Shown in pieces: positions 11,512 to 39,831 of a stretch of 43,910 bases of DNA. Origin of the DNA: Candidatus Obscuribacterales bacterium (lineage in GTDB: Bacteria > Cyanobacteriota > Vampirovibrionia > Obscuribacterales > Obscuribacteraceae); contig JAGVKG010000015.1 in the NCBI GenBank assembly GCA_020050685.1, positions 1 to 43,910 of the forward strand, in the 5' to 3' direction. The position numbers and the translations under genes are program-made. A model generated the notes under the pieces. The model searched no databases. It had not been told where the DNA came from and saw nothing but the letters and a program-made list of their open reading frames with translations. Every line of letters begins with the position of its first letter. Positions within the stretch are counted from its first letter, which is position 1.

Positions 11512-11540
11512 GAAGGGCGGCTTTCGGGTCGCCCTTTTTA
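11512..11540. terminator. Bidirectional terminator between convergent genes
   Basis: AAGGGCG...CGCCCTT followed by TTTTTA on the plus strand. It lies 21 bases after the stop of the exported protein and abuts the stop of the minus-strand protease gene. The A-rich left side is short, so it is stronger in the plus direction. Confidence 0.75.
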
Positions 11541-20836: not shown

Positions 20837-21613
20837 ATGACCAGTCGCGAACCAATTTTAGTCATCAAAGATTTGCATGTTGCTGTCGAGGACAAGCAAA
20901 TCCTCAAGGGCGTCAATTTGACCATCAACAAGGGTGAAGTGCACGCGCTCATGGGACGTAACGGTTCCGGCAAGTCGACACTCGGCTACACCCTCATGGG
21001 TCATCCGCGCTATCACATCACTCAAGGCAAAGTCCTCTTCAAAGGCAAGGATTTGTCCGAGATGACTGCCGATGAGCGCGCCCGCGCTGGCATGTATCTG
21101 GCATTCCAATATCCGGTCGCCATCCCAGGCGTTTCCGTCTCGAACTTCTTGCGCGCCTCAGTTAAGGCTGTGCGCGGACAAGATGTGCCAGTCAAAGAGT
21201 TCCGCAAAGAGCTGAAAGAGCACTTGACCAAACTTGGTGTCAAAGAAGATTTCCTCTCGCGCTATGTCAACGACGGTTTTTCTGGCGGCGAAAAGAAGCG
21301 TCTGGAAATTCTGCAAATGGCGCTGATGAAGCCACAAATGGCACTCTTAGATGAGACCGATTCCGGTCTGGACATTGACGCCTTGAAGACAGTCTCGGCT
21401 GGTATCACAGCCTTGGCTGGACCAGAGATGGGCATTTTGTTAATCACTCACTATCAGCGCATCCTCAACTATGTCACGCCACAATTCGTGCACGTAATGC
21501 AGGATGGTCAAATTGTTCTTTCCGGATCCGGCGAACTTGCTCACAAGCTGGAAGCCGAGGGTTATGACTTTGTCACCAAAGAACCGGCTGTTGCCACACA
21601 AAGTCGCACCTAA
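20837..21613 (+). CDS. sufC: SufC, Fe-S assembly ABC ATPase
   Basis: 258 residues. ATPase of the SufBCD scaffold complex. Walker A is GRNGSGKST (40-48), the ABC signature is FSGGEKKR, and Walker B is [16 protein letters not shown], with the switch His in [10 protein letters not shown]. The RBS AAAGG is 3 bases before the ATG. It is first in the plus-strand suf operon, followed 20 bases later by sufB. Confidence 0.96.
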
Positions 21614-21633
21614 GTTTGCGCCGAGGAGGCCCT

Positions 21634-23064
21634 ATGTCAGCAGAACTAACCCGCAATGCAATGCTTCATGAAGTTGGAGCCGATTACGATCAAAAGTACG
21701 GCTTCAGCGACAAGGAAGATTACACATTCAAGTCCGGTCGTGGGCTGACGTCTGAGATTGTCACCAAAATCTCGCAAATGAAAAACGAGCCGGAGTGGAT
21801 GCTCAAGTTTCGCTTGCGCGCTTTGGACATTTTTCACAAGAAGCCGATGCCAACTTGGGGTAACACAAAGTTACTGAACGACATCGACTTCCAAAACATC
21901 TTTTATTACATCAAGCCTTCAGAGAAACAAGGCAAGAACTGGGATGAAGTTCCGGAAGGCATCAAAAACACTTTTGATCGCCTCGGTATTCCAGAAGCTG
22001 AGCGTAAGTTTTTGGCTGGCGTGACAGCCCAATACGAATCGGAAGTGGTTTATCACTCGATTCGTGAGGACTTGGAAAAACAAGGCGTTATCTTCTTAGA
22101 CATGGACTCCGGTCTGCGCGAACATGAAGACATTGTGCGCGAGCATTTTGCCACCGTGATTCCAGCCGCTGACAATAAGTTTTCAGCCTTGAATTCTGCA
22201 GTTTGGTCTGGTGGCAGTTTCATCTGGGTACCGCCAGGCGTGAGGGTGGAGATTCCGCTGCAAGCCTACTTCCGGATTAACGCAGAAAACATGGGACAGT
22301 TCGAGCGCACACTAATCATCGCCGAACCTGGTTCTTTCGTTCACTATATAGAAGGATGCACAGCTCCTACTTATTCAACTGACTCTTTGCACTCGGCAGT
22401 GGTTGAGCTGATTGCGAAGAAGGGTGCGCACATTCGTTATACGACTATTCAGAATTGGTCCAAGAACGTTTACAACTTGGTGACCAAACGTGCTGTTGCC
22501 CATGAAGACTCCAAAGTCGAGTGGATTGACGGTAATCTTGGCTCGAAACTGACCATGAAGTATCCGGCCATCTACTTAGTTGGACCACGTGCTCATGGTG
22601 AAGTTTTGTCAGTTGCCTTAGCCGGTGAAGATCAGCACCAAGATGCTGGCGCCAAAATGGTGCACGCCGCTCCGGACACTACTTCGATCATCGTCTCCAA
22701 GTCTATTTCCAAAGCTGGCGGACGTACCTCTTATCGTGGCTTGATCAAGGCATATCCTGGTGCCACCAACATCAAATCATCAGTGCGTTGCGACGCACTT
22801 TTGATGGACGAGATATCGCGCTCCGATACTTATCCGACTATGGAAATTGACGAGAAGCAAGTAACAATCGAGCACGAAGCCACCGTATCTAAGGTTGGCG
22901 AAGAACAACTCTTTTACTTGATGAGTCGTGGTCTGACACAGGCGGAAGCAACGACCATGATTGTGAACGGCTTCTTTGAACCATTCACAAAGGAACTGCC
23001 CTTGGAATACGCAGTTGAGTTGAATCGTTTGATTCAAATGGAAATGGAAGGCTCTGTCGGATAA
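21634..23064 (+). CDS. sufB: SufB, Fe-S assembly scaffold
   Basis: 476 residues from the ATG at 21634, preceded by GAGGAGG with a 4-base spacer; the frame is open 18 bases further up but that stretch encodes the RBS. SufB is the main scaffold of the SufBCD complex on which clusters are built. The C-terminal beta-helix core ([20 protein letters not shown], then [20 protein letters not shown]) is typical. A conserved Cys sits in [10 protein letters not shown], and [19 protein letters not shown] closes the domain. Its length matches cyanobacterial SufB. Confidence 0.96.
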
Positions 23065-23096
23065 CTAACCTGCGGATATTGAAGCGGAAATCAGAA

Positions 23097-24494
23097 ATGA
23101 ACTCAGACGTACACACTATTGCAAGAGAAACAATCGAAGATTTGGCGTTAAAGCAAAAGACACCAAGCTGGACTAAGGACTTGCGCCTTGCGTCCTGGGA
23201 AGCTTACTTGCAGACACCATTCCCGACAACACGTGACGAGAACTGGCGCCGCACCGTGATTGAATCGCTCGATCTCTCTACGCTTAAGGCTTTGGAGTTT
23301 GCCCCAAGCACAAGTGGAGCAGACAAATCTTTTCCAGCTTGTTTCCAGTCGGTCATCAAACATTTTTCTCAAGCCAACAGCACTTTGTCCGGCATTTGCT
23401 ACCAAGGCAATGGGCGCCCTGGTTATATCGAATTGTCTGATGAAGCTAAATCCAAAGGTGTAATATTCTGCGACATTGAAACTGCGCTTGCCAATCATGC
23501 TGATTTGCTTCAGCCCTATCTGGCCAAGCGCAACGCTAGCAAGGAGAACGGTAAATTTGCCTTGCTGACTGGTGCCTTGTTCAATTGCGGACTGTTCTTG
23601 TACGTACCAAAAAATGTTGAGCTCAAATCCCCATTTGTCTCTGGCATTGGCATTAGCACTTGTGCCAACACTTCCGGTGACTTTGGCGGTGCCATATTTC
23701 CTCGCTTGATTGTCGTAGCCGAACCAGAAAGCAATGTCAGCCTGGTTCACTTAACTGGATCTGCTGATACCGCTGGCGACAACGATTGTCGTTCCTTGCC
23801 AGCTTCGTTATCCGCATCCATGGTTGATGTATTTGTCTCAGACGGTGCCAATGTCTCGTTTGTAGAACTGAGCCAGTTTGCCCAAAATGTTTACGCTATC
23901 GGCACAGTGCACAATGAAGTGGCGCGCGATGGGAAGTTCACCGCCGTCAACGTTGCTCTCGGTGGCAAACAAGTTAAGTCCGACATTTATACGCACTTGC
24001 AGGCACAGGGTGCGGCAAGCGAAATTTTGGGCATTGTTCTAGGCTCTCATGATGAGCATTACAGTTTCAACACAATCCAAGAACATAATGCTCCAGACAC
24101 CAAGTCGGACATAAATTTCCGTGTTGCTCTCAAGGACAATGCCAGCTCAGTTTATCAAGGCGTGATCAAAGTCGATAAGTGCGCCCAAAAAACAGACGCT
24201 TATCAATCCAACAAGAATTTGCTTCTGGGAGCCGGAGCCAAAGCCGATTCCATTCCGCGATTGGAAATTCTTGCTGATGATGTGAAATGCTCTCACGGTG
24301 CTACAGTTGGTCCAGTCGATCCGGAGCAATTGTTCTATCTAGCCAGTCGCGGATTGCCGGAAAAAATTGCCGAAGAATTGATCGTCCTTGGTTTCTTCAA
24401 AAAGGTTTTGGACAAGCTGACTGTCGATGGCGCAGCAGACTGGTTGGTTGAAGCTGTTTCCCAGAAAATCGATGACAGCGGCTATTGCGCTTAG
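23097..24494 (+). CDS. sufD: SufD, Fe-S assembly scaffold subunit
   Basis: 465 residues from the ATG at 23097; the frame opens at a TTG at 23079 without an RBS. It is a SufB paralogue: the C-terminal region has AVNVALGGKQVKSDIYTHLQ, EHNAPDTKSDINFRVALKDN and GATVGPVDPEQLFYLASRGL. The N-terminal part (REPFL-like region SWEAYLQTPFPTTRDENWRR) is the SufD signature. It is 32 bases downstream of sufB and 64 upstream of the Rieske gene. Confidence 0.93.
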   Translation: MNSDVHTIARETIEDLALKQKTPSWTKDLRLASWEAYLQTPFPTTRDENWRRTVIESLDLSTLKALEFAPSTSGADKSFPACFQSVIKHFSQANSTLSGICYQGNGRPGYIELSDEAKSKGVIFCDIETALANHADLLQPYLAKRNASKENGKFALLTGALFNCGLFLYVPKNVELKSPFVSGIGISTCANTSGDFGGAIFPRLIVVAEPESNVSLVHLTGSADTAGDNDCRSLPASLSASMVDVFVSDGANVSFVELSQFAQNVYAIGTVHNEVARDGKFTAVNVALGGKQVKSDIYTHLQAQGAASEILGIVLGSHDEHYSFNTIQEHNAPDTKSDINFRVALKDNASSVYQGVIKVDKCAQKTDAYQSNKNLLLGAGAKADSIPRLEILADDVKCSHGATVGPVDPEQLFYLASRGLPEKIAEELIVLGFFKKVLDKLTVDGAADWLVEAVSQKIDDSGYCA

Positions 24495-24558
24495 CACGAT
24501 CGAAAAGCAGTTTTCACTTTCAATTTCTCATGCATTCATCACAACAGGTTCACTTCAA

Positions 24559-24876
24559 ATGGTCAGTCAATTAGTTAAAGTTGCATGCCTCAAAGATGTC
24601 CCAGAAGGACACGCCAAAGTCGTGCAAGCTAACGGTCACGAACTGGCGCTTTGTAATGTGGGTGGCGAGATTTACTGCATTGATGATCTTTGCACGCATG
24701 ACAATGGTCCGCTTGGTGAAGGCGAATTGGTCAATGGCCAAATTGAATGCCCTCGCCATGGTGCACGCTTTGATGTAAAGACGGGCAAGGCGCTTTGTCT
24801 ACCGGCGGTGCTGCCAGTTAGCACCTATAAAGTTGAAGTAAAGGGCGACGACATTTATGTCGGGCTGCCCGAGTAA
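24559..24876 (+). CDS. Rieske-type [2Fe-2S] ferredoxin in the suf operon
   Basis: 105 residues from the ATG at 24559; the upstream extension of the frame overlaps sufD and is not protein-like. The ligand motif is CTHDNG (Cys 45, His 47) with CPRHG (Cys 64, His 67), the NirD/bphF-like Rieske arrangement. It is soluble, without a TM segment. Its position between sufD and sufS suggests it supplies electrons to cluster assembly or is an early cluster acceptor; both are inference. The stop is 16 bases before sufS. Confidence 0.9.
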   Translation: MVSQLVKVACLKDVPEGHAKVVQANGHELALCNVGGEIYCIDDLCTHDNGPLGEGELVNGQIECPRHGARFDVKTGKALCLPAVLPVSTYKVEVKGDDIYVGLPE

Positions 24877-24892
24877 TAAGTCGAGAATAGCC

Positions 24893-26134
24893 ATGTTTGA
24901 CACAAAGAAAGTAAGAGAAGATTTCCCCATCCTTTCCCGCAAGGTGAATGGGCAAACATTGGTCTATCTGGATAATGCCGCCACATCCCAAAAGCCAATC
25001 CAAGTTATCGATGCAATCAGCCAGTACTACAAAGAGTACAACGCCAATATTCATCGCGGCTTGCATACGTTAAGCGAAGAAGCAACCATTGCTTATGAAG
25101 ATGTGCGTGAAAAAATCGCCAAGTTTATTGGCGCCCGAGAGACAAATTCGGTTATCTTCACGCGCAACACAACTGAAGCGATTAACCTCGTAGCCCACAG
25201 CTGGGGCCGCCACAATATTTTGCCTGGCGATCAAATCGTCCTATCGGCTATGGAGCACCACTCCAATTTAGTGCCCTGGCAAATGCTGGCTAAAGATCGT
25301 CAAGCTAATTTAGCTTTTATTGAATTGACCGCCGATGGACAGTTGGACATGGAAAGCGCCAAGAAAGTAATTGGCTCGCCACGCACAAAACTTGTTTGCA
25401 TCAATCATATGTCCAATGCGCTAGGCACGATTAACCCAGTTGCTGAAATTGCCAAACTGGCACGTTCGCAAGGTGCAACAGTCTTGATTGACGCAGCACA
25501 ATCGGTTCCACACCTGCCAACTTCCGTGCAAGAAATTGATTGTGATTTCTTAGCTTTCTCCTTCCACAAAATGCTCGGACCAACCGGCGTCGGTGTTCTC
25601 TGGGGCAAACCGGAACTTCTTGAAGCCATGCCACCATTTCTCGGTGGCGGCGACATGATCTCTGCTGTTTGGCGCGATCGTGCTACTTACAACGAATTGC
25701 CTTGGAAGTTCGAAGCCGGCACACCAAACATTGCTGATGTTATAGCCTCCGGTGTAGCAATTGATTATTTACAAAATCTCGGCATGGAAAATGTTCGTGC
25801 CCACGAAATTGAACTAACTGAATACGCCCTGAAAAAATTTACTACTCTCAACGACGTGGTGATTTATGGTCCACCAAACGCGAAGGATCGTGGCGGCGTT
25901 ATCTCATTCAATTTTGCCCAAGTGCATCCACACGATTTGGGACAAATTCTCAACGAATCCGGCATCGCCATTCGCGCCGGGCACCACTGCTGTCAGCCAC
26001 TGATGCGTGACTTGAATGTTTCAGGCACAGCCCGCGCCTCATTCTACATTTACAATACAAAAGAAGAAGTCGATCTTTTAATGGCAGCATTAGAAGAAGC
26101 AAACAAGGTAATGGGACATGTCGCTTTCCGATGA
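24893..26134 (+). CDS. sufS: SufS cysteine desulfurase
   Basis: 413 residues from the ATG at 24893; upstream codons belong to the Rieske gene region. Class V PLP enzyme: the Schiff-base lysine is in AFSFHKMLGP (Lys 226), the PLP Asp in LIDAAQSVPH, and the catalytic Cys in IAIRAGHHCCQP (Cys 366, followed by a second Cys where Ala is usual). It mobilises sulfur from cysteine as persulfide, passed here most likely to SufU. Its 3' end overlaps sufU by 17 bases. Confidence 0.95.
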   Translation: MFDTKKVREDFPILSRKVNGQTLVYLDNAATSQKPIQVIDAISQYYKEYNANIHRGLHTLSEEATIAYEDVREKIAKFIGARETNSVIFTRNTTEAINLVAHSWGRHNILPGDQIVLSAMEHHSNLVPWQMLAKDRQANLAFIELTADGQLDMESAKKVIGSPRTKLVCINHMSNALGTINPVAEIAKLARSQGATVLIDAAQSVPHLPTSVQEIDCDFLAFSFHKMLGPTGVGVLWGKPELLEAMPPFLGGGDMISAVWRDRATYNELPWKFEAGTPNIADVIASGVAIDYLQNLGMENVRAHEIELTEYALKKFTTLNDVVIYGPPNAKDRGGVISFNFAQVHPHDLGQILNESGIAIRAGHHCCQPLMRDLNVSGTARASFYIYNTKEEVDLLMAALEEANKVMGHVAFR

Positions 26135-26627
26135 TTTATACAGAGAAACAATTCTCGATCACTACCACCACCCACGCAACCAAGGCGTAATCGAACATCC
26201 AACCGTCAAGGTTGAAGGTGTGAATCCGCTTTGTGGCGATGAGGTAACGCTTTATATAAACGTCAACAACAAAACCATTGACGATGTAAAAATTCACGGT
26301 AAGGGTTGTTCAATCAACACTGCATCCGGATCAATCATGAGCGATTTGATCAAGGGTAAATCTGTAGAAGAAGCATCAAAGACAATTGAGTTATTCAAAT
26401 CGATGATGCTCACTAAAGGCGTGGAAGTAGAGATTCCGGAAGAGCTTGAAGATCTTGAATGTTTGCAAGGCGTAAAAAAATATCCTGTCAGAATTAAGTG
26501 TGCACTTCTGCCCTGGAATACATTGGCAGAAGGACTGAAGACTGCCGAAACCAAGGCTGGACAATTTGTGCATTTTGAAACTAATGGCGATCATGAGCTC
26601 GGTCGTGTTGTCGTGAACGGAGGCTAA
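26118..26627 (+). CDS. sufU: SufU, zinc-dependent sulfurtransferase
   Basis: 169 residues; the ATG lies inside the end of sufS. Zinc ligands and catalytic Cys match SufU: VNPLCGD (Cys 39, Asp 41), GKGCSIN (Cys 64) and VRIKCALLPW (Cys 128). It accepts the persulfide from SufS. The insertion typical of SufU relative to IscU (around residues 95-115) is present. It is about 20 residues longer at the C-terminus than the usual ~147. The protein pairs with SufS as in Firmicutes, whereas gamma-proteobacteria use SufE. Confidence 0.93.
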   Translation: MSLSDDLYRETILDHYHHPRNQGVIEHPTVKVEGVNPLCGDEVTLYINVNNKTIDDVKIHGKGCSINTASGSIMSDLIKGKSVEEASKTIELFKSMMLTKGVEVEIPEELEDLECLQGVKKYPVRIKCALLPWNTLAEGLKTAETKAGQFVHFETNGDHELGRVVVNGG

Positions 26628-26628
26628 A

Positions 26629-26937
26629 ATGTCATCTCTGCAACAAGATGTTATTCGTGAACATTTAAAGACCGTAGTGGACCCAGAACTTGGTCTGAAC
26701 ATTGTTGATCTCGGTCTGATTTATGAGATTGAAGTCAATGGTGGCGATGTCACTGTCGCAATGACACTCACATCACCGGCCTGCCCACTCGGCGCTGTGA
26801 TTCAAGGACAAGTTCACCAAGCCCTGACTAAAATTCCCTGGGTGAAAGAACCAAACGTAAAATTAGTTTGGAGCCCACGCTGGGACCCACGCACCATGGC
26901 TTCGGAAGACGCCAGAATGGAACTGGGGATATTGTAA
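26629..26937 (+). CDS. sufT: SufT-like MIP18/DUF59 Fe-S carrier
   Basis: 102 residues. The MIP18 core is VVDPELGLNIVDLGLIYEI, then AMTLTSPACPLG with the conserved Cys, ending VKLVWSPRWDPRTMASEDAR. It has GGAGG 5 bases before the ATG and starts 1 base after sufU. SufT-type proteins assist maturation of Fe-S targets. It is the last gene of the seven-gene suf operon; no clear terminator was found behind it. Confidence 0.9.
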   Translation: MSSLQQDVIREHLKTVVDPELGLNIVDLGLIYEIEVNGGDVTVAMTLTSPACPLGAVIQGQVHQALTKIPWVKEPNVKLVWSPRWDPRTMASEDARMELGIL

Positions 26938-28202: not shown

Positions 28203-29387
28203 GTGGGCACTGCACTACAAAATCGACCAACCGGCGACGCGACGAAGGGCTCAACACCTAAGTCAAACAAGTGGCGCTTTATTTTTGGCGTAGCGCTCTG
28301 GGCAATTTGTCTTTTTGCTTTGCTCAATTTCGCCCTCTGGAAAGTTGTCGGCGAAGAAAAGGCCGCGTCAAAAGATTTGTGGAATGGCACAGGATCAATT
28401 GATCTGGCCATCGACGGACTAGCTGCCTTGAAGACACGTCCGAATGTTGTTTTGCTTGGCTCGTCTCTTATGATGTACCCGTTCTGGGCTATGGACAAAG
28501 AGCGCGATAGTAAAATTGGCGACATATTCCATCATCACTTCTCTCATGCCATGGAAGACAAGCTTGTCCAAGGTGGCATGAAAGATCCAACTGTTTACAG
28601 CTTGGCAATTTTTGGTCAGATGTCTTCCGATGCGTATATTTATGTGTACGAGTTTCTCAAAGGCGATAAGAAACCGGAATGGCTGGTGCTCGGTATTGCC
28701 CCACGCGATTTCAGTGATTACGACTTGCCATCACCAACTGCAACTTATACTTTCCAACGTTTGGTTGGTCTGGCTAACTTCGATCGCTATGCCGCACTTT
28801 ATTTACCAACCTGGCAAGGCCGTACTGATTTCTTGATGAACCACGTCTGCTTTTTCTATAATCGCAGATGGCGCTTACAAAAAGAATTCGACAAAGTAAT
28901 CAACAAGGCTTATGCCTTTGCCGGTTTTACGCAAGCCCAAACACAAGCCAAGCCAACTGAGAATAACGCCGGCTTCATGCTCTCCGGATCGGAAGACGAG
29001 CGTTTTGCCAATAGTCTCAACGAGTACAAAAGACGTTACCGTTATATTGGCGATCGCGATCTGACAGTACAAATGGGTTTTTTGGATCGCCTACTTGCCG
29101 TCTGCCATGAACGCGGGATCAAAGTCATCTTAATCAACATGCCGCTCACCGATATGAACCGCCAATTGTTGCCCCAAGGATTCTATGACCAATTCAGTCA
29201 ACGGATTGGAAACTTAGCCAAGTCGCACGAAGCGAATTTCTTGAACCTCGGCGCTTCGCCAGAATTTAATCGCGGCGATTTCTGGGACACAACCCACCTA
29301 AATCACTCCGGCGGCCGCAAGCTTTTGAAGCATATTCTGCCCATAACAAGCGCACAGGCGGTTGACTTCAAGGAAGGCAAGCCTTAG
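28203..29387 (+). CDS. Membrane-anchored SGNH-hydrolase-like protein
   Basis: 394 residues from a GTG preceded by AGGGG with a 9-base spacer. One N-terminal TM helix (FIFGVALWAICLFALLNFALW, about 27-47) places the rest outside. The catalytic pattern is SGNH/AlgX-like: VVLLGSSLMM (Ser 87/88) and WDTTHLNHSGGRKL (Asp 362, His 365). Proteins with this layout often act in O-acylation of envelope glycans, but no acyl donor partner (MBOAT) is near. Function is inferred. Ends 20 bases before the convergent cyclophilin gene. Confidence 0.7.
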   Translation: MGTALQNRPTGDATKGSTPKSNKWRFIFGVALWAICLFALLNFALWKVVGEEKAASKDLWNGTGSIDLAIDGLAALKTRPNVVLLGSSLMMYPFWAMDKERDSKIGDIFHHHFSHAMEDKLVQGGMKDPTVYSLAIFGQMSSDAYIYVYEFLKGDKKPEWLVLGIAPRDFSDYDLPSPTATYTFQRLVGLANFDRYAALYLPTWQGRTDFLMNHVCFFYNRRWRLQKEFDKVINKAYAFAGFTQAQTQAKPTENNAGFMLSGSEDERFANSLNEYKRRYRYIGDRDLTVQMGFLDRLLAVCHERGIKVILINMPLTDMNRQLLPQGFYDQFSQRIGNLAKSHEANFLNLGASPEFNRGDFWDTTHLNHSGGRKLLKHILPITSAQAVDFKEGKP

Positions 29388-29407: not shown

Positions 29408-30241
29408 TTAGTTAGTTTGTTCTTCTATTTTGATCGAAACAATTTTGTCGCCGATGGCGATTTTTCTTACTACGTCCATGCCTTCTACGACACCACCGAA
29501 GATCGAATACTTCATATCTAGAGCGGGTTGCGGCGAAAGTGTAATATAGAACTGGCTACTATTTGAATTTGGATCGGCAGCTGTATGGGCCATTGCCACC
29601 ACGCCGGGTGCATTGTGTCTCAGCCTGGCATTGATTTCCAGTTTTATGTTGCGCGGCTGATTGGTCTCCGGATCTACATAGGATCCTGTACCATCTCCAT
29701 TTGGACATCCGCCTTGCACACAGAAGCCTGGCTCAACACGATGAAATGTAAGACCGTTATAAAATCCTTTGTTCACCAAATCAATGTAGTTTGCCGCTGT
29801 GTTTGGTGCCATGCTTTGGAAAAGACGAATGACAATTTTGCCCTTGCTTGTTTCAAGCACCGCTAATGGATCCTTTTTATTTGCCGGTGGTGTCACCGGT
29901 CCCATCTGAGAATTTTGTGTTCCTGGAACACCTGCACCGGCATAAGATGGCGGCGTAGACAATCCTGGCACCATCGCTCCTGCCTTGGAACCCGGAGTAG
30001 ATGTACTTTTTGCCGAACTATCAGTTTGCACTGCCGGCGCCGGTTTATTTGAACCGGGGGTCAACACAACATCCGGCGGAATTTGATCGGGACTAAGCTT
30101 TTCGGCCAAAGATGAATGGCCAAACAGAACGAAATTACTGACGAGCGCCACGATTAGCATGGCTAATGCCAGCACTAGCAATCTTAGAAAATGACTGGCT
30201 TGTCTCCGGTTTGTACCACCGTTTAGCTCGCGGTTATTCAT
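29408..30241 (-). CDS. Membrane-anchored cyclophilin-type peptidyl-prolyl isomerase
   Basis: 277 residues. One N-terminal TM helix (FLRLLVLALAMLIVALVSNFVLF) then a Pro/Ser-rich linker of about 90 residues. The cyclophilin domain begins AVLETSKGKIVIRLF near 128 and includes GLTFHRVEPGFCVQGG, VAMAHTAADPNSNSSQFYIT and LDMKYSIFGGVVEGMDVV. It probably acts on the outer face of the cytoplasmic membrane. Its ATG overlaps the 3' end of the upstream YfhO gene by 8 bases, so it is the last gene of the nagB-YfhO operon and might fold its products. Confidence 0.9.
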   Translation of the reverse strand: MNNRELNGGTNRRQASHFLRLLVLALAMLIVALVSNFVLFGHSSLAEKLSPDQIPPDVVLTPGSNKPAPAVQTDSSAKSTSTPGSKAGAMVPGLSTPPSYAGAGVPGTQNSQMGPVTPPANKKDPLAVLETSKGKIVIRLFQSMAPNTAANYIDLVNKGFYNGLTFHRVEPGFCVQGGCPNGDGTGSYVDPETNQPRNIKLEINARLRHNAPGVVAMAHTAADPNSNSSQFYITLSPQPALDMKYSIFGGVVEGMDVVRKIAIGDKIVSIKIEEQTN

Positions 30242-32783
30242 TGCCTTTGCCCTTTCTCTTATCCTTGATGATAGACATTATAAATAGTAGGGCAAGAATA
30301 CACAAAGCAAAAATTGCCAGTCGAATTCCCCAGGTCAAAGACTCGGGCTGGTACTTAAACTCAATGGCGTGGCTGCCCGCTGACAATAACAGGGCTCGTT
30401 GAATTGCATTAGCGCGATATATTTTGCTTGGCTTCTGGTCAACAGTTGCTTGCCAGCCTGGATAATATTGATCGGCGACAACCAACCAACCCGGAAAGTT
30501 TGTATCGACCTTGAGCGACAATAGTTCTGGCTTGTCTGATTCCAGAACAATATTACACATGCCGGCTGCCCTAGACACGTCGGCACTGCCAGGTATTTGA
30601 CCATTAAATCCTTCAATCAACACCAATGGCTGTGGATCAGGGCCATACATTGTTAGACTTTGCATTTGCTTAAGCGCATCAGCATGAGAAGCACAACTTT
30701 GCCAGGAAGGAATAAAATACACGCGTTGCCGACTGGCAAGCACACGATAGACGCGAGCATTCATTGCTGCATCATCAACGACTAACTCGAAGAATTTCGG
30801 ATCTAGATTGGCCACGTGTTCAGGCTTGCCACCTGCGGCCCTGAAAATAAATTTCTGTGTTACTACATACTTGCTACCAGTCACTTCGCACAAACGGGCA
30901 AAGGGAATGTCTGAACATTCTCGGTATTTAAATTCTGTAGGACCCGGCTGAGGGTTTTGCGTTGATTTGAGATAAGCAGACAAATAAAGATCAAAATAGT
31001 CTCCCACCATCGCTCCTTCGTAGCCAAAGGCAGATGGCATGTTGAAATCCATGTTTGTATTTGGTCTGAGCATTTGCCTGGAATACTGATACCAGTTGGC
31101 TGTTGCTGGATGCGGTTTGCCACCAACCCACCAAGGAGGGCACGTGAACAGCTCTAAATACAATCCGCTGATACGCGGACTGAGGACAATGTCATGCTTG
31201 AACAAATTGACTAATTGATCGTTTAAGTAACTTGGACGAGCAAAATAATGGCTATCAGCCTGGTGCCGATCAAAAACAAAAGACGTACCGAACATGGTTG
31301 CAGCTAATAGACCAATCAACATCAACCCTGCATTTTTGGGGCTAAGAACTTTAGAACGACAAAGTTGGGCAACCAAGCACGATAGTAAACCAATGGTAGA
31401 TGCGATCATTACTCCAATTCCAATTGCAGCTTCTGCCTGCATGGACAAATCGTTTGTCGATGCCTGAAACCACCACATTTCTGAAAATGGGAATGCCACA
31501 ATTTTATTCAACGACAGAGTAAATAATATTGTGCCAACGATCAAGGTGCCCAACCAAACCAGGCATGCAACGACGTGGCTAACTTTTGATACTCTATCTT
31601 CAATCAGAGCACTCATACCTCGTGATGCCAAAATGGCCACGATCAAGATCACGAAATACAAAAGCTTGACCGGAAATCGCACATAAGCAAGCGCCGGAAA
31701 TCCGGTAGCAAGCAGTGGCATGATTGGCGTCTGATCGCCAAGCGCAATCACGATTGTCGCTATAAGAAAAATCAAAAAGAACCAGCGATATTTCCACTGC
31801 CTATCCAAAATTCCCCAAAGCGCAAACGTTATTGCCACTGGCCCAACATATGCAGAAGACAAATACGGTATCAAGCGAGGCTGAGTTGTTGCAAGCGGCA
31901 AAAACTTCGCTGCGTGCAAATGCAAATCGCCCAAGGGATGTGCAGCAAATAGACAAAGCATGTCGTACCAATTGGCGCTATAAAGAAATGCCTCATGTAA
32001 GCCTAAGCCTTGCGAACGGCGTGAAACACTTAGCCATTCTAAAGTTGGCAGTATCTGCGGCGCAGAAAGTAATATTCCAATTAGAAGTGCGGCAAGCTGC
32101 CACAATGCTCGTCTCCACGCAACTTGATCATTGCCACTACGGCAAGAATGCCAGAAAGAAAATACAATGCCTGCAAGAATGATTGCAATTGCCGGAGCAA
32201 CAATTTCCGGACGACCTGAACAAATCAACATGAATGTAGCCAGTGCCGTTGCGAAAGTTATACTTACATTTTTGCCAGTCAAATCGGAGTCAAGTCGCAA
32301 AAAGCACCAAAGTGCAACCGGGCACCAGGCAGCTGCTGCCACCAATGTGTAGTTGCCTTCCAATGAGAACATATATCCAGAAAGCGAAACTACAACAGCT
32401 CCTGCCGCTCCCGCCAAAGCTCCCCAGCCGAAACTGGCAATCAATGCATAAGTACCGATGGCTGCAACTAATTGATGAAACACCATTTGCCAGGCAAGCG
32501 CTTGACTGAACGGCAAGAGTGCAAAGAGATAATTAGGAAGGTAAAAGAGTCCGGGTGATGGAATCGCAACTTGTGACATACCACAATACGAAAGTGGATT
32601 CCACAAGGGGAATCTTCCTTGCCTTATAGCATCGCCAATATAGCGACAGAGTGGTTCAAAGAACAATGTCACATCGCCCTGATAGAAAGCTTTCTGCCCG
32701 GAGAGCCAAGGCCAATAGAAAGCAATCAATCCCGCTACTAACGCTAGAAACAATATCGTGGGCGGCTTCCAATTTCTATTCAT
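30234..32783 (-). CDS. YfhO-family membrane protein, copy 1 (849 aa)
   Basis: Polytopic, about a dozen TM helices then a large C-terminal exoplasmic domain. The YfhO family signature is YQGDVTLFFEPLCRYIG (Asp 37, Glu 43) followed by FPLWNPLSYCGMSQ in the first external loop. The C-terminus has DQYYPGWQATVDQKPSKIYR-AN and HAIEFKYQPESL, typical of the family. YfhO is a GT-C-like protein; in Bacillus subtilis YfhO acts in lipoteichoic-acid glycosylation. A glycosyltransferase role here is inference. It overlaps copy 2 by 4 bases. Confidence 0.85.
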   Translation of the reverse strand: MNRNWKPPTILFLALVAGLIAFYWPWLSGQKAFYQGDVTLFFEPLCRYIGDAIRQGRFPLWNPLSYCGMSQVAIPSPGLFYLPNYLFALLPFSQALAWQMVFHQLVAAIGTYALIASFGWGALAGAAGAVVVSLSGYMFSLEGNYTLVAAAAWCPVALWCFLRLDSDLTGKNVSITFATALATFMLICSGRPEIVAPAIAIILAGIVFSFWHSCRSGNDQVAWRRALWQLAALLIGILLSAPQILPTLEWLSVSRRSQGLGLHEAFLYSANWYDMLCLFAAHPLGDLHLHAAKFLPLATTQPRLIPYLSSAYVGPVAITFALWGILDRQWKYRWFFLIFLIATIVIALGDQTPIMPLLATGFPALAYVRFPVKLLYFVILIVAILASRGMSALIEDRVSKVSHVVACLVWLGTLIVGTILFTLSLNKIVAFPFSEMWWFQASTNDLSMQAEAAIGIGVMIASTIGLLSCLVAQLCRSKVLSPKNAGLMLIGLLAATMFGTSFVFDRHQADSHYFARPSYLNDQLVNLFKHDIVLSPRISGLYLELFTCPPWWVGGKPHPATANWYQYSRQMLRPNTNMDFNMPSAFGYEGAMVGDYFDLYLSAYLKSTQNPQPGPTEFKYRECSDIPFARLCEVTGSKYVVTQKFIFRAAGGKPEHVANLDPKFFELVVDDAAMNARVYRVLASRQRVYFIPSWQSCASHADALKQMQSLTMYGPDPQPLVLIEGFNGQIPGSADVSRAAGMCNIVLESDKPELLSLKVDTNFPGWLVVADQYYPGWQATVDQKPSKIYRANAIQRALLLSAGSHAIEFKYQPESLTWGIRLAIFALCILALLFIMSIIKDKRKGKGNE

Positions 32784-35485
32784 GGTCTTGCCCCTTCTGA
32801 CGAGCCTGTCTGTCTTCTCGAAGATTCTTTAGACAGTTTGGCAGATATCAAAGCAATTAAAAGCAAAATGGTGATCAGAACAAGTCCTAGCATGGCGAGG
32901 ATCAAACCGATGCGCACGCTTTCCGGTTCATAATCGAATTCGACAAAGTGCCCGCCTGGTGGCAAGTGCACCGCACGCTGCACAGCATTTGCGCGATAGA
33001 TAGGCACAATGTGTGAGTCAACCCGTGCTTGCCAACCAGGATAGTATTGATCAGCAAGCACGAAAAAAGACGGTACGCTTGTTCGTACATAAAACCAAAC
33101 GTGCTCGGGCAGGTCTTTCACCAGTCGCACTTCGTTGTCACCACCAGCAGGCAAGGCAATTGCCTTATGGCGATAGTTCATTCTGGAGTCTTGACTAGGC
33201 TCAATCAACGTAATCATATTGGGATTGTAGCCAGACAAGTACGAGTCCACAATATGATTGATCACATTAGCATGCGAGTCCTTCCACAACCACGAGTTGG
33301 AAATGTAGGCTCGCTCACGTGAGTCCTTTACTTTGTAGATACGAACATTCATGACTCGGTTTTCCAGAACCAGCTCAAAATAATTCTTGTCCAAAATTGG
33401 CACAGACTTAGGTAGATCGCCGACACGCTCATATCGAAATGTTTGTGTCAGAGCAAATTTGCTTGCCGTCATTTGACAAAAACGCGCTAGTGGAATATCC
33501 GTTCCACTTACCATTGCAGCCTGCGCTGGTTCTTGTGCCCGACTATCGGATGACTGAATAACACTGCTAAAGTTTTGGCTGGATTTGCGAAAGGCTTTTA
33601 TGAAAAGGTCGTGATAGTCACCTGTCTCAGCCGACTCGTATCCCCAAGCAGATGGAATATGTGCATCCATATTAGTGCAAGGCATCGCCAACTGACGCGA
33701 ATACTGATGCCAGGCAGCCGTCACCGCATTCCTATCATGCTTGTAATACCAAGGCGGGCAGATCACCGGATCAAAATAGAGCATGATGCAGCGCGGATAC
33801 TTAGTCCAAACATTTGCATGCGACTTATGAACATGACTGGCTCGCGTTCTACCAGTAATGGCTTGCTCAGCAATTGCTGCATTTGCTGCTTTAAATTGAT
33901 CTTGAACAAAAATTGGCCGATTGAAAAACTCAGGCTCTGTTCCGTGACGCATATATAAAAATGCCGGCATCATGGTAGTCAAAATAATTCCTGCAAAAAC
34001 AGACCAGCGAAAATGTTCTGCCCTAATCTTTTTATGCCAAAAAAGATATGCAACAGTACACGTGGCAATACCCATAGCTGCAGTCCGCACAAACCCTTGA
34101 CCAATTAAAAGACAAGCATCTTTAACAAGCGGCTCTCCGCTCATCAGACTGTTCGCCAGAGCAACAGCAATACTTGTGTCACGCACTTGCAAAAGCACAA
34201 TGCCACCAACCAGGCAGCTCATCCAAACAAGCCAGGCACTCAGCTGCGTGAATCGACCGGGTTGCCCTCGCAAAACAAAGCTCATTCCCCGAGCGGCAAT
34301 AATAGCCAAACAAATTATTGGGAAGATCAAAAACTTGACTGGATATCTGCCAATTGCCATTTGAGGAAAGAGTTTCAAAAGTCCGGGCAGAAGCGCGGAA
34401 TTAGTACCCATGGCAAAAGACAAAGAGAGCAACATCAATGCAAGGAAAAGCCATCTGGCTTTCCACGTCTTATCGCACAAGCCCCAAATAGCAAGCGATG
34501 CCACAACTGCTCCCACATAGGCAGACGAAACAAGTGGTGCAGAGCTTCTGCTTGTTGCCACCAGATTGATGAACTTATTGCCAATGCGAGTTAAGTCACC
34601 TAGCGGCTGGCTGACAAACAGACAAATCAAGTCATACCAATTAGCGCTCCAATCAAGCGCTTCATTACTAACCAGGCCTTGGGCGCGCGGCGACAAAGAG
34701 AGCCATTCGCATGCCGGCAAAATTTCCGGCATAGCCAGAAGCACACCAATTACAATCCCCAAAAGCCTCCAGGCAATCACAGATGGACTTTGATACCACT
34801 TGCCGTGGCTTTTGCCCGCATCAGGGAAAATGAATGTGCAAATCAAGACAATTAAAAACGAGGGAACACAAATCTCCGGTCGCCCGGAAGCCAGCAACAT
34901 GAATACAGAAACTGCCAAGCCGATCACAGAAAGCAGGCAGCACGCCAGTTTGTGCAATCCGCTGTATCGCATAAACCACAAAGCAAGCGGCAACCAAGAT
35001 ACGGCTGCCACCAAAGTATAGTTGCTTTGCAGCGAAAACATGTAGCCGGAAAGAGCAAAGACCAATCCACAAACAAAAGCAGCGGCAGCGCCCCAAGCAA
35101 AACTTGCCACCAAGAGAAATCCACCGATGCCGGCAATCAGCTGGTGTGACACCATAATTACGGCCAAGGCCTTATTGAATGGCAGAGCCGCAAACAATAA
35201 ATTAAAGGGATAAAAAATTCCTGGTGAAGAAATTGCCGCTTGCGACATTCCACAATATGTATATGGATTCCAAAGTGGCAATTTACCGCGAGCAAAAGCC
35301 TCGCCAATAAAACGGCATAGTGGTTCAAAGTAAACCGTCACATCGCCATAATAAAAAGATTGCAAGCCAACCAAAAAAGGCCAATAGAAAACAACCAATA
35401 CACCAGTCAATAAAATCGCAAACGCCAAACATGACCTGGCGCCATTCGGCAATGAATCAAATGCAGTTTGTAGACCAAACTTCAT
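32780..35485 (-). CDS. YfhO-family membrane protein, copy 2 (901 aa)
   Basis: Clear paralogue of the neighbours, the longest of the three. The first external loop reads YYGDVTVYFEPLCRF (Asp 48, Glu 54), then LPLWNPYTYCGMSQ. Shared C-terminal motif DQYYPGWQARVDSHIVPIYR and HFVEFDYEPESV. The C-terminal TM helix is followed by a Ser/Arg-rich tail. It has an intact Asp-Glu pair. It starts 4 bases after copy 3 and its last codon overlaps the start of copy 1 (ATGA), which implies translational coupling. Confidence 0.85.
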   Translation of the reverse strand: MKFGLQTAFDSLPNGARSCLAFAILLTGVLVVFYWPFLVGLQSFYYGDVTVYFEPLCRFIGEAFARGKLPLWNPYTYCGMSQAAISSPGIFYPFNLLFAALPFNKALAVIMVSHQLIAGIGGFLLVASFAWGAAAAFVCGLVFALSGYMFSLQSNYTLVAAVSWLPLALWFMRYSGLHKLACCLLSVIGLAVSVFMLLASGRPEICVPSFLIVLICTFIFPDAGKSHGKWYQSPSVIAWRLLGIVIGVLLAMPEILPACEWLSLSPRAQGLVSNEALDWSANWYDLICLFVSQPLGDLTRIGNKFINLVATSRSSAPLVSSAYVGAVVASLAIWGLCDKTWKARWLFLALMLLSLSFAMGTNSALLPGLLKLFPQMAIGRYPVKFLIFPIICLAIIAARGMSFVLRGQPGRFTQLSAWLVWMSCLVGGIVLLQVRDTSIAVALANSLMSGEPLVKDACLLIGQGFVRTAAMGIATCTVAYLFWHKKIRAEHFRWSVFAGIILTTMMPAFLYMRHGTEPEFFNRPIFVQDQFKAANAAIAEQAITGRTRASHVHKSHANVWTKYPRCIMLYFDPVICPPWYYKHDRNAVTAAWHQYSRQLAMPCTNMDAHIPSAWGYESAETGDYHDLFIKAFRKSSQNFSSVIQSSDSRAQEPAQAAMVSGTDIPLARFCQMTASKFALTQTFRYERVGDLPKSVPILDKNYFELVLENRVMNVRIYKVKDSRERAYISNSWLWKDSHANVINHIVDSYLSGYNPNMITLIEPSQDSRMNYRHKAIALPAGGDNEVRLVKDLPEHVWFYVRTSVPSFFVLADQYYPGWQARVDSHIVPIYRANAVQRAVHLPPGGHFVEFDYEPESVRIGLILAMLGLVLITILLLIALISAKLSKESSRRQTGSSEGARP

Positions 35486-35489
35486 ATAG

Positions 35490-38099
35490 TTACCTGTTCA
35501 TGCCAATCATCAAGCGAAAGTAAATATAGAGAAGAAAAACAAAAAGCAGAGCACCGGCACAGAAAGCCAAGTTCAATCCAGTCTTCAAACTTTCTGGCTC
35601 ATAATCAAATTCAATTAAGTGACTACCTTGCGGAATAAAGACAGCCCTCTCAACTGCATTTGCACAATAAATTTGCGCTGGAACCGAGTCCACCTTTGCT
35701 TGCCAACCCGGATAAAACTGATCGGCTAAGACCACAAATCCTGGGCGATTGACTTTGGCGGAAATGGCCACGTGTTCTGGGCGATCGTCAAGAATTTCCA
35801 CATATTGCTCGCCTTTGTGTTGCTGCGCATCATTAGCTTGCATGATCAGTTTGCCATCGGGCGACGGCTCAACCAAAAGCATCTTTGCCGGATCAAACCC
35901 AGAAGTATCTGCTTCGATAATTTGCTTCAATACATCTGCGTGTCCAGTATTCAGCTGCCACGACGTGGCAAAGTGCGCACGTGGTAATGCGTTTTTCACT
36001 TCGTAAATTCTCACATTCATAAATGGATCTTCGGCGCGAACATCAAAATACTTAGGATCTAATAGAGGCACCGCCGCCGGTAGCAGTCCACCATTTTGAT
36101 ACTTTACTATCTGCGTAGTTGCGTATTTCGTCCCACTCATTTGGCAAACTCGAGCTAAAGGCACATCAGAGCACGCGGTCTCGGTGCCAGTTCCAACCAA
36201 ATGAGACTTGGGAACAACTTGCCAAAACAGTTCATGCCAATCACTTGTCTCTGCTGCTTCAAAACAAAATATTGACGATACCTGGGCATCAATGTGGGTA
36301 TTTGGGAAAAGCATCTGACGCCCATACTGATAAAAGGCAGCTGTCCTGTCACTAGCACTAGCAACTTTCTGCACATTGTACGGGTCATTATAATCCGGCG
36401 GCATCAGGAATGGATCAGTGTATAGAACTGCAATTCTCGGTTTATCGATCCCGATAATTGAATTTCCCGTCTTGCGTTCTGGCATATTCAATTCATCTGA
36501 CAGCTCTTTCATTCTGTCAGCGAGATAAGATCGTCCTTCAAAGAAATCTCTGTATGTCCCATGCCGAGCAAAGGCAAATGCCGAGGTAAGCAAAGTCGCC
36601 GTCAAAATCAAAAGTAAAAGTCCAACGTAAATCTTTTTCCTCAATTTGCCTTGCCAAAAAAAGTGAGAAAGCCCACAAATAATTAGACCGAGAGCACAAG
36701 CCCGCAAGCCGGCTTGACCGATCAGGGCTGTAGACTGAACAAATGTGGCTGGTGTGACTGCCCTACTAACAATCAACCACATTGCCACCATCTTCGAAGT
36801 GGCTTGCGGGAAAAGTGAAAGTGCAGAACCACCAATAATTCCAAATCCCCAAAAGGCTAAGGCAACAATCTTGCCAGAACGGGGCACTCGATTTGCGACA
36901 GACAAATGTGCACCGCGAGCCGCCATAATTATCAAGCAAAGAATGGGAAAGAAAATCAATTTTACTGGATATCTGAACAAGGCAAATATCGATTTGCTGT
37001 TCACAAATAACGAATCAACAGGAGTTTGATTTCCTAATGAAACGATCACGCTGGCAATCAAACATCCCAAGACAAAATATCTATGCTTCCAGCTGCGATC
37101 AAAAATCGCCCAAATTGCGAGCGTGAAAGCAACAGGGCCAACATAAGCAGAAGAAAGAAATGGAACTGCACCGGCTCGTGATTGCACTACCGGCAAAAAT
37201 TTTGAGCCAAACAGACTGACATCACCAAGCGGCTGCAAAAGCACAGTGCAAAGATAATCGTACCAATTGGCGCTCCACAAAAAGATTTCTTTGGCATCCA
37301 AGCCTTGGGCTCGGCGCGACAAACCAGCCCATTCCCAAGCCGGCAATATTTCCGGCATTGCCAATAAAAGCCCCAAGAAAAGTGCCAGTCCCTGCCAGAA
37401 CAAAATGCCACGCCAATTATTGTCACCATTTACGCGCATCTTCCAAGCCGAATAAGCGATATATGCAATAACAAAAATAATTCCAGGCAGTGAGATTTCC
37501 GGCCGACCCGCTGCTAGGAAAAAGAAAGTAATGATGGCACAGAGCACGACAAAGGCAGTGTTCTTGGTGGCGACACCAGTCTGAATTTTTCTCACCGACC
37601 AGAAAAGCAATGGCAGCCAGGCAGCACTCGCCATCAAAGTGTAATTATTCTCCAAGCCAAACATGTAACCGCAAAGCGCCAGGCTCAGGCCACAAACCGA
37701 TGCGGCAACTAATCCCCAACCCGCTGCGAAGATAACAAGGAAACCACCAATGCCGGCAATTAATTGATGTGCCACCATAATAATCGCCAGCGCCTGACTA
37801 AAGCCCAAGACGCCAAACAACCAATTAAAAGGATAGAAAATCCCAGGAGAAGGAATGGCAATTTGCGGCATGCCCAAATATGAATATGGATTCCATAGCG
37901 GCAAACGCAACTGATGAAACGCAGCGCCAATAAAACGACAAAGCGGTTCAAAGTAAAACGTCACGTTGAACAAATAAAATGATTGCTGACCAGACAAAAA
38001 CGGAAAGTAGAAAAGGCAAAGAACAAAAGATAGCGCCAAGAAAAACAGACAAAAAACTATTATTGGTTGACGCGATTCAGGTATATCAGAGAACTTCAA
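35490..38099 (-). CDS. YfhO-family membrane protein, copy 3, with Asn in place of the loop Asp (869 aa)
   Basis: First YfhO gene in transcription order, 2 bases after nagB. The first external loop reads YLFNVTFYFEPLCRF (Asn 45, Glu 51), so the GD of the other copies is FN. I checked the codons: TTC-AAC. The rest is conserved (RLPLWNPYSYLGMPQ, DQFYPGWQAKVDSVPAQIYC, HLIEFDYEPESL). If that Asp is catalytic, as in GT-C enzymes, this copy may be inactive or act on another substrate. About a dozen TM helices plus an outer domain. Confidence 0.85.
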   Translation of the reverse strand: MKFSDIPESRQPIIVFCLFFLALSFVLCLFYFPFLSGQQSFYLFNVTFYFEPLCRFIGAAFHQLRLPLWNPYSYLGMPQIAIPSPGIFYPFNWLFGVLGFSQALAIIMVAHQLIAGIGGFLVIFAAGWGLVAASVCGLSLALCGYMFGLENNYTLMASAAWLPLLFWSVRKIQTGVATKNTAFVVLCAIITFFFLAAGRPEISLPGIIFVIAYIAYSAWKMRVNGDNNWRGILFWQGLALFLGLLLAMPEILPAWEWAGLSRRAQGLDAKEIFLWSANWYDYLCTVLLQPLGDVSLFGSKFLPVVQSRAGAVPFLSSAYVGPVAFTLAIWAIFDRSWKHRYFVLGCLIASVIVSLGNQTPVDSLFVNSKSIFALFRYPVKLIFFPILCLIIMAARGAHLSVANRVPRSGKIVALAFWGFGIIGGSALSLFPQATSKMVAMWLIVSRAVTPATFVQSTALIGQAGLRACALGLIICGLSHFFWQGKLRKKIYVGLLLLILTATLLTSAFAFARHGTYRDFFEGRSYLADRMKELSDELNMPERKTGNSIIGIDKPRIAVLYTDPFLMPPDYNDPYNVQKVASASDRTAAFYQYGRQMLFPNTHIDAQVSSIFCFEAAETSDWHELFWQVVPKSHLVGTGTETACSDVPLARVCQMSGTKYATTQIVKYQNGGLLPAAVPLLDPKYFDVRAEDPFMNVRIYEVKNALPRAHFATSWQLNTGHADVLKQIIEADTSGFDPAKMLLVEPSPDGKLIMQANDAQQHKGEQYVEILDDRPEHVAISAKVNRPGFVVLADQFYPGWQAKVDSVPAQIYCANAVERAVFIPQGSHLIEFDYEPESLKTGLNLAFCAGALLFVFLLYIYFRLMIGMNR

Positions 38100-38101
38100 A
38101 C

Positions 38102-38842
38102 TTATGTATTGTTTCTAGAGTAATCAAAGTCAGTTATCACGTTTACATTGAAATGATTTTGCAAAAACGAAGCCGGCACATCGATACCAACCGGCCCATG
38201 AAAAGCACTATGCATTATCTTTTGTTTGTCCATGCCACTAGCCAGCAGAATGATCTGCCGGCTTGCCAAAATGGTAGAAATTCCCATAGTTATGGCTCGG
38301 CGCGGTGTCTGGTCAAGAGAACCAAAGAAGCTTGAATTTGCCTTGCGTGTCGACTCAGTCAACAAGAGACAATGCGTCCAACTGGCTTGCACCGTGCCCG
38401 GTTCATTAAAAGCGACATGCCCATTATGACCGATGCCAACCAGCGTTAAGTCCAATCCACCCGAATCGGCAATCAACGCATCATAATCATCACAAAAGCG
38501 TGGATTGAATTTGGATTGCATGGGCAAATTCGTATGCTTGTAGAGATTCTCTTCCAAATAATGAGCAAACGATTTTGACTCCTGCGCATCCAAATAGTCA
38601 TCTAAAGCAAAACATTTGGCTTGCGACCAATCGAGCCTTCCCGCCACAGACCATTCGGCAAGCAATTTGTAACAACCAAGCGGCGTGCGTCCAGTCGGAA
38701 GCCCGATACAGGCATTGGGCTTTTCCGTTAGAAGCCTGGCAATAGCCTCGGCAGCCTTGAAACTGACGTCAAGGTCACTCACTGTCATTCCTTCTACTTT
38801 TGTTGGCGCTATTTTTGCTTGCCAAGTAACGTCCAAATTCAT
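38102..38842 (-). CDS. nagB: Glucosamine-6-phosphate deaminase, short type
   Basis: 246 residues. Converts glucosamine-6-phosphate to fructose-6-phosphate and ammonia. Motifs: CIGLPTGRTPLGCYKLL, catalytic FALDDYLDA, and GIGHNGHVAFNEPGT with the His and Glu of the active site. Asn precedes GH where E. coli has Asp. Length fits the shorter, non-allosteric type rather than the 266-residue E. coli enzyme. It is first in the operon with three YfhO genes and the cyclophilin, which links amino-sugar metabolism with envelope glycan modification. That link is inference from tight spacing. Confidence 0.85.
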   Translation of the reverse strand: MNLDVTWQAKIAPTKVEGMTVSDLDVSFKAAEAIARLLTEKPNACIGLPTGRTPLGCYKLLAEWSVAGRLDWSQAKCFALDDYLDAQESKSFAHYLEENLYKHTNLPMQSKFNPRFCDDYDALIADSGGLDLTLVGIGHNGHVAFNEPGTVQASWTHCLLLTESTRKANSSFFGSLDQTPRRAITMGISTILASRQIILLASGMDKQKIMHSAFHGPVGIDVPASFLQNHFNVNVITDFDYSRNNT

Positions 38843-38964: not shown

Positions 38965-39831
38965 ATGAAGCAATCATCTTTTAGATTCGTAATATTAGTT
39001 ACCTTAGTTACCATTTGCTCGTGCTTTGCTCAGTCGGCAGGGGCGCAAAACCGCAATCTGCCCAAAGCAAGCTTTCCTACTTTTTTCAGCCCAAGCAACG
39101 GTGGAGCACCCACCTCCATGGGCATGCACCTGACTCCAGGAATGGACCGCCCCAAAAATGCGGCTGCCCAAGTCTATCCACCGGGTGAGCCCAGCCAAAA
39201 CGGCGGCTTGGTTCGCTGGGAAGCAAAGAAGATGCCTTTGCACATTTGGATAAGCCCAGGGCTGAAACTGCCGGAAAAACCTTTTGAGGAAGCTCAAGCA
39301 ACTCGTGTGGGAGAAGTTTTTGACATGCTCTGCTCGCCCCAAGCAGATCCTTTCGCCGGCATGAAGACGGCTATCGACTGGACACCTCAAACAAACGATG
39401 TTGTAGCATCGGGAATTGAAATGTGGCGCAGATTCCAAGACGAAGGTCTGATTAGCTTCGATTTTGTCGATGATCCACGGAATGCCAGAATTTTGATCTT
39501 TTTCACTGACAGCTTTCACGATGCCAATTCTCCTGGTGGCACTTCTGTTGCTGGCAATACCTCGGCAGAAATTTTCTCTTATGCCCAGGCACAGCAAATC
39601 AACATTGCTCAGAAACCGGTGGTCATCGAACTTTCTACAACCATCAATAGCTCAGAAGGCAGAATGCGTGCCGCAGCCGCCCACGAATTTGGTCATGCAC
39701 TCGGCATAAAGGCTCACAGCCCTTACCGTGAGGACTTGATGTACGTGGACCGCATTGTCGAGCAACTTTCCCCATCGGATGTCGCCACCTTTCGCTGGCT
39801 TTATCATCAGACACCGCAGTGGGTTTATTGA
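38965..39831 (+). CDS. Exported metzincin/matrixin-like zinc protease
   Basis: 288 residues with a signal peptide (FVILVTLVTICSCFAQSAGA). The zinc motif HEFGHALGIKAHS begins at residue 240 and is followed by the Met-turn-like DLMY. The third ligand is one residue later than in the canonical HExxHxxGxxH, giving HExxHxxGxxxHS. This variant is known from cyanobacterial matrixin-like proteins with GHS-x(4-6)-DVMY. Upstream segments (LHIWISP, VASGIEMWRRFQDEGLISFDFV) are those of the catalytic domain. It is divergent from nagB across 122 bases. Substrate unknown. Confidence 0.85.
   Translation: MKQSSFRFVILVTLVTICSCFAQSAGAQNRNLPKASFPTFFSPSNGGAPTSMGMHLTPGMDRPKNAAAQVYPPGEPSQNGGLVRWEAKKMPLHIWISPGLKLPEKPFEEAQATRVGEVFDMLCSPQADPFAGMKTAIDWTPQTNDVVASGIEMWRRFQDEGLISFDFVDDPRNARILIFFTDSFHDANSPGGTSVAGNTSAEIFSYAQAQQINIAQKPVVIELSTTINSSEGRMRAAAAHEFGHALGIKAHSPYREDLMYVDRIVEQLSPSDVATFRWLYHQTPQWVY

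Follow-up and report, generated by a model that had tools for sequence, protein, structure and literature searches.

Three YfhO-type genes inserted into an older nagB-cyclophilin pair in the Obscuribacter family, and their probable role as GT-C glycosyltransferases

Overview

The window analyzed here is a stretch of 43,910 nucleotides (contig C67; GenBank JAGVKG010000015.1) from a 4.2 Mb genome, 98.7% complete, of the Candidatus Obscuribacter family, a lineage that belongs with the Melainabacteria within the Cyanobacteria and has an envelope of the Gram-negative type. On the minus strand lie, in order, nagB, three genes for large membrane proteins of the YfhO type (Y1, Y2 and Y3; together, the trio), and a cyclophilin gene. 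Our reading, held at a probability of roughly 0.7, is that the trio are GT-C glycosyltransferases set into a nagB-cyclophilin pair, with nagB a passenger, with Y3 probably derived from a locus of pilin, LCP and GT9 genes, and with Y1 lacking the aspartate of the first outside loop. No paper on YfhO in the Obscuribacter lineage came up in the literature searches.

The nagB-cyclophilin junction

Comparison was made across 50 genomes of the family, the window's genome included, which is the one representative of its genus. In 17 of 20 relatives' loci inspected, the cyclophilin gene comes immediately after nagB, the spacing running from -41 to 265 bases (approximate values, from a simple open reading frame caller). 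The usual order in these 20 loci is a divergent M10 protease gene (cluster c2, which adjoins nagB in nearly all relatives), nagB, cyclophilin and, often, a convergent DltD-like gene (cluster c7). All three exceptions belong to genus g7 (L095, L099, L100) and carry other genes at or near the junction, among them an MFS transporter in two of the three loci and a second M10-like gene; the junction has thus received insertions before, and may be a preferred place for them. Although nagB was counted in 47 of the 50 genomes and a YfhO-type gene (by its N-terminal part) in 40, the two are near each other in the window's genome only. Elsewhere they share a contig only in G013, about 527 kb apart, a count limited by fragmented assemblies; the 20 nagB loci that were inspected show the lack of adjacency directly. 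The nagB-cyclophilin pairing is also found in relatives having YfhO genes at other sites. In the window's lineage, the trio was inserted between nagB and cyclophilin, an old pair.

The nagB product matches Glucosamine_iso (PF01182) over the cut-off and has the LD(D/E)Y and GxGxNGHxAFNEP motifs common to its relatives. Its NCBIfam match to a glucosamine-6-phosphate deaminase subfamily (3.4e-57) falls under the curated equivalog cut-offs, so the substrate assignment stays at family level. NagB enzymes are catabolic and yield no activated sugar, and since another contig of the same genome carries nagA (scoring above its curated cut-off), an ordinary role is available to nagB. As no other genome of the family has the trio inside the older nagB-cyclophilin operon, a role of nagB in a new sugar pathway is unlikely, and the gene is most probably a bystander.

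The five genes are tightly packed, with successive junctions from nagB to cyclophilin of +2, +4, -4 and -8 bases (a 2-base gap, a 4-base gap, a 4-base overlap and an 8-base overlap); the 2-base gap between nagB and Y1 depends on the TTG start of Y1. A preliminary description of this DNA had correctly stated that the five genes overlap or are at most 4 bases apart, over a range beginning at 30234 that leaves out nearly the whole cyclophilin gene. It had also suggested a link of nagB to the trio, possibly through the use of amino sugars, naming a lack of conserved nagB proximity in relatives as what would speak to the contrary; proximity was found in none of the 46 nagB-bearing relatives, and the tie is not borne out. 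One transcript from the nagB promoter probably includes the trio; promoter and terminator scans gave results near chance level and were not used. An origin of the trio as foreign DNA was rejected, its G+C content being 45-47% against 47% for the window.

Family and fold of the trio

Y1, Y2 and Y3 are 41-43% identical to one another over full length, well above chance. In a protein scan with Pfam YfhO (PF09586; cut-off 28.5 bits) Y3 scored 27.1 bits and Y2 20.3, with no match for Y1, and the matches were limited to the last part of the protein. A genome-wide Pfam scan placed Y3 and two copies on other contigs (C16 and C44) above the YfhO cut-off, and 23 of 24 family homologues match the model (E up to 0.01). 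The breadth of these matches, together with the fold, firms up what would be a weak assignment for any single protein. The PgfM2 model (NF047590) matches Y2 (3e-5) and Y3 (5e-5) weakly, with scores near 20 bits where the cut-off is 1500.

An AlphaFold2 model of Y3 was built on a four-row alignment (mean pLDDT, the predicted local confidence score, of 51). In structure alignment of this model, each of rows 1-25 was a GT-C enzyme or a complex that includes such an enzyme, with AftD at the head (Z 14.2 over 361 residues) and AglB (10.8), Pmt1 (10.7) and ArnT (9.5) also among them; ArnT was also the best Foldseek match (E 1.5e-3). The structure tool warns that a helical model can score up to about Z 13 against unrelated proteins; it is the uniformity of the match list, and not Z alone, that argues for a GT-C fold. 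When the C-terminal 318 residues of Y3 were folded alone, AftD again came first (Z 9.5), followed mostly by beta-sandwich domains of glycosidases, and in this model the outer C-terminal part resembles a carbohydrate-type beta-sandwich domain. Hydropathy gives each of the trio 11-12 hydrophobic segments (a hydropathy count, not the output of a trained topology predictor), a long outside part and one final helix, the last segment following a gap of about 320-430 residues. The B. subtilis YfhO has 13 helices with a 389-residue loop preceding the last one (PMC5836110). Taken together, the trio are probably divergent YfhO-family GT-C glycosyltransferases. Searches of solved structures by sequence, with three-row and 24-row queries, found no relative. 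When named genomes were scanned, the one true relative was in Ca. Obscuribacter phosphatis, which sets the window's genome in the Obscuribacter lineage; a Myxococcota match in that scan (43% over 44 residues) was not meaningful.

Among the closest characterized proteins are YfhO of B. subtilis and S. aureus and Lmo1079 of Listeria. Like the trio, these are large membrane proteins of 11-13 helices in which a long outside domain precedes the final helix, have a C-terminal Pfam YfhO match and, by analogy, act on an envelope polymer at the outer side of the membrane; the trio differs in its diderm host, in having no adjoining CsbB-type gene and no GtrA found in the genome, and in the confinement of its sequence match to the last part of the protein. 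PgfM1 and PgfM2 of Streptococcus mutans (NF047590) are likewise two related membrane proteins of one operon, acting in stepwise glycosylation (PMC5856776) and so a precedent for related enzymes that work one after the other, whereas the pgf operon also has a GT-A gene (pgfS) and an epimerase gene. AftD, the mycobacterial arabinofuranosyltransferase (6W98, 6WBY) and best structural match of both the whole Y3 model and its C-terminal domain, has carbohydrate-binding domains outside the membrane joined to a GT-C membrane part (PMC8035078), but it is 11-16% identical, has 1250-1312 resolved residues as compared with 849 in Y3, and belongs to a mycobacterial envelope. ArnT (5F15) and bacterial PMT_2 enzymes share the GT-C fold, a Gram-negative envelope and the polyprenyl-phosphate sugar donor proposed for the trio; however, the trio has no PMT_2 match, and separate PMT_2 proteins exist in the same genome.

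The first-loop aspartate

An aspartate is found in the first outside loop of 38 of 39 family homologues, the sole exception being Y1, where Asn45 (codon AAC) occupies the column of Asp48 in Y2 and Asp37 in Y3. GT-C enzymes commonly rely on an acidic residue in this loop. For Listeria GtlB, a section on residues needed for function describes tests in which Asp residues of the first loop were changed to alanine (PMC5836110), and we infer that the first-loop Asp is the catalytic residue in the Obscuribacter-family homologues. Y2 and Y3 retain it along with nearly all strongly conserved residues in the comparison of 39 homologues. With this Asp replaced by Asn, Y1 may be inactive, judging from its sequence; it keeps a Glu six residues after Asn45, and the Asn could conceivably stem from a single-base assembly error.

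Ancestry of the three copies

Phylogenetic analysis does not recover the trio as a single group. An approximately unbiased (AU) test rejects Y1, Y2 and Y3 as one clade (p 0.009), and in the more careful tree Y3 is placed with copies of the pilin/LCP/GT9 locus and a few others (support 100/99), with Y1 and Y2 weakly placed (80/88). A quick 40-row tree put Y1 and Y2 with nuoN-linked copies. Each copy of the trio is about as distant from its neighbors as from copies in other genera.

Two recurring sites of YfhO-type genes were found. In 12 family genomes (including the window's, on C16; e.g., L065:7619-11944) and in Ca. Obscuribacter phosphatis, such a gene directly follows nuoN, with an lpt cluster nearby on the opposite strand wherever the contig extends far enough. 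At the second site, in relatives, the genes near by encode an LCP enzyme, pilin-like proteins and a GT9 enzyme. The corresponding locus of the window's genome (C46) has the LCP, pilin and flanking genes in order and no YfhO gene at the relatives' positions. The simplest reading is that Y3 was probably relocated from the pilin/LCP/GT9 locus to the nagB junction. In genome G021, second-locus copies fall beside the nuoN-linked copy of that very genome, so events of this kind, moves or duplications, have taken place more than once. One pilin/LCP locus also encodes a protein of 1255 residues in which an MFS-like membrane part is fused to a spermidine-synthase-like domain and TPR repeats (L106:12631-16398).

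Proposed function and alternatives

In the proposed scheme, every active copy would work on the outer side of the inner membrane, where a sugar carried on polyprenyl phosphate would be passed to a surface protein or a glycan of the envelope. The membrane part would house the active site, with its first-loop Asp, and the outer C-terminal beta-sandwich would grip the acceptor. Undecaprenyl phosphate is the likely candidate for the carrier by analogy with YfhO (PMC5836110, PMC8035078, PMC11898649) and PgfM1/PgfM2 (PMC5856776). The trio would be read from the nagB promoter, with nagB a passenger by position and not a sugar supplier, and Y1 might be a non-catalytic partner or an enzyme with another specificity. 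The GtrA family (PF04138) gave no match in the genome at E 0.001, and was present in 7 of the 50 family genomes with control genomes positive; given this, an alternative flippase would be needed. There is no GT-A gene inside the operon, and a GT2 gene adjoins the distant C44 YfhO-type copy of the same genome (L066:12413-13450). Because the Y3 clade sits in a pilin/LCP/GT9 setting, a pilin or peptidoglycan-linked glycan is the acceptor candidate worth testing first. A fuller version, in which the trio is a GT-C assembly line working without GtrA, Y2 and Y3 adding successive sugars to a pilin, lipopolysaccharide or LCP-linked glycan and Y1 serving as a scaffold or acceptor-binding pseudo-enzyme, is rather unlikely.

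Other explanations for the cluster were weighed against the insertion of glycosyltransferase genes. That nagB and the trio make up one pathway, with amino-sugar metabolism feeding or tuning the trio's glycan, is quite improbable, as the adjacency of nagB and YfhO is confined to 1 of the 50 genomes, nagB is already paired with cyclophilin in relatives (including those with YfhO elsewhere), and a catabolic NagB, with nagA elsewhere in the genome, would make no activated sugar. The near-overlap of the genes does suggest co-expression, and the ties of characterized YfhO proteins (PMC5836110) and PgfM2 (PMC5856776) to N-acetylglucosamine addition make an amino-sugar donor plausible. The preliminary description had seen the trio as a tandem triplication, and local triplication of a single YfhO gene to raise its dosage would fit both the head-to-tail order and the near-equal mutual identity. 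It is contradicted by the AU test and by the firm grouping of Y3 with copies of other genomes, as well as by the distances, each copy being about as far from its neighbors as from copies of other genera, so that triplication is equally improbable.

That the trio are not glycosyltransferases, and that their GT-C-like membrane part serves a flippase or channel, appears very improbable. Flipping was raised as a possible additional role of YfhO by the authors of PMC5836110, and both the missing GtrA flippase and the loss of the first-loop Asp in Y1 could be accommodated, but the top structural rows are glycosyltransferases, and the Asp and conserved residues are kept in Y2 and Y3. A reading of the trio as transporters was rejected by the GT-C structural matches.

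Several points weigh against the favored reading of inserted GT-C glycosyltransferases. The individual Pfam YfhO scores of the trio are below the cut-off in the protein scan, and the low confidence of the Y3 model, built on four rows, makes its fold match supportive and not firm. With the GT-A partner absent beside the trio and GtrA not found, the known three-part scheme (of the CsbB-GtcA-YfhO type) is incomplete. The absence of Y3 from the pilin/LCP locus could reflect an independent loss plus a separate gain, and the insertion is attested by a single genome, the only one of its genus.

Of the preliminary description, the parts concerning protein type and envelope have stood, and the link of nagB and amino sugars to the trio has not. 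The YfhO type of the trio is supported by the 23 matching homologues and the GT-C-like fold of the low-confidence model, and the contrary outcome that it had named, clustering with unrelated transporter families, did not occur, since the trio resemble GT-C enzymes. The C-terminal carbohydrate domain that it had proposed to look for agrees with the beta-sandwich part predicted in Y3, for which AftD was the first match. A Gram-negative envelope, which it had deduced from kdsA, is borne out by that gene (13953-14816; 403 bits against an NCBIfam equivalog cut-off of 242), by LptF and LptA families over their cut-offs and, weakly, by LptC; Gram-negative-type envelope genes, including those for lipid A synthesis, have been described in Melainabacteria (PMC4040986).

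Features and neighboring genes

The features of the cluster are collected in Table 1.

Table 1. Features of the nagB-YfhO-cyclophilin cluster and its immediate flanks (window coordinates)
Feature	Position	Strand	Details
nagB, glucosamine-6-phosphate deaminase family (Glucosamine_iso)	38102-38842	-	246 residues; Pfam PF01182 9.7e-19
Y1, probable YfhO-like GT-C glycosyltransferase	35490-38099	-	869 residues, TTG start; 43% identity to Y2 and Y3
Y2, probable YfhO-like GT-C glycosyltransferase	32780-35485	-	901 residues; Asp48 in first loop
Y3, probable YfhO-like GT-C glycosyltransferase	30234-32783	-	849 residues; Asp37 in first loop; Pfam YfhO 27.1 bits
Predicted C-terminal beta-sandwich of Y3	30345-30731	-	about residues 685-813, outside the membrane, last transmembrane helix follows; structure model and hydropathy
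Cyclophilin-type peptidyl-prolyl isomerase	29408-30241	-	277 residues, N-terminal hydrophobic segment; Pfam PF00160 1.3e-46
Matrixin-type (M10) metalloprotease, divergent from nagB	38965-39831	+	Pfam PF00413 1.6e-06; conserved left neighbor in relatives
DltD/DUF1574-like protein, convergent with cyclophilin gene	28203-29387	+	Pfam; recurring right neighbor in relatives

Elsewhere in the window, two overlapping genes at 669-2437 on the minus strand, for an AAA ATPase and an RloB-like protein, match the PADLOC AbiL phage-defence pair (AbiLi 6.7e-75; AbiLii 6.4e-06). Adjoining kdsA, at 11538-13946 (minus strand), is the gene of an 802-residue protein whose sequence combines TPR repeats with two stretches of retropepsin-like aspartyl protease. 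A SUF operon at 20837-26937 (plus strand) encodes a sufC-like ABC protein, two SufBD proteins, a Rieske-type protein, sufS-like and NifU-like proteins and an iron-sulfur (FeS) assembly protein, and a helix-turn-helix regulator gene (19913-20578) is divergent from it. In relatives, it is dnaK and not the SUF operon that lies beyond the genes of clusters c6-c7.

Conclusions

In summary, the family of the trio is ordinary and its arrangement is unusual, the points of note being the lineage-specific insertion, the mixed ancestry of the copies and the Asn in Y1. The cluster is also a caution, in that a tight operon in one genome hinted at a pathway that the relatives do not bear out. These findings would extend YfhO-type GT-C enzymes, known from work on bacteria with teichoic acids, to the diderm Obscuribacter lineage, in which YfhO-type copies multiply and shift between loci.

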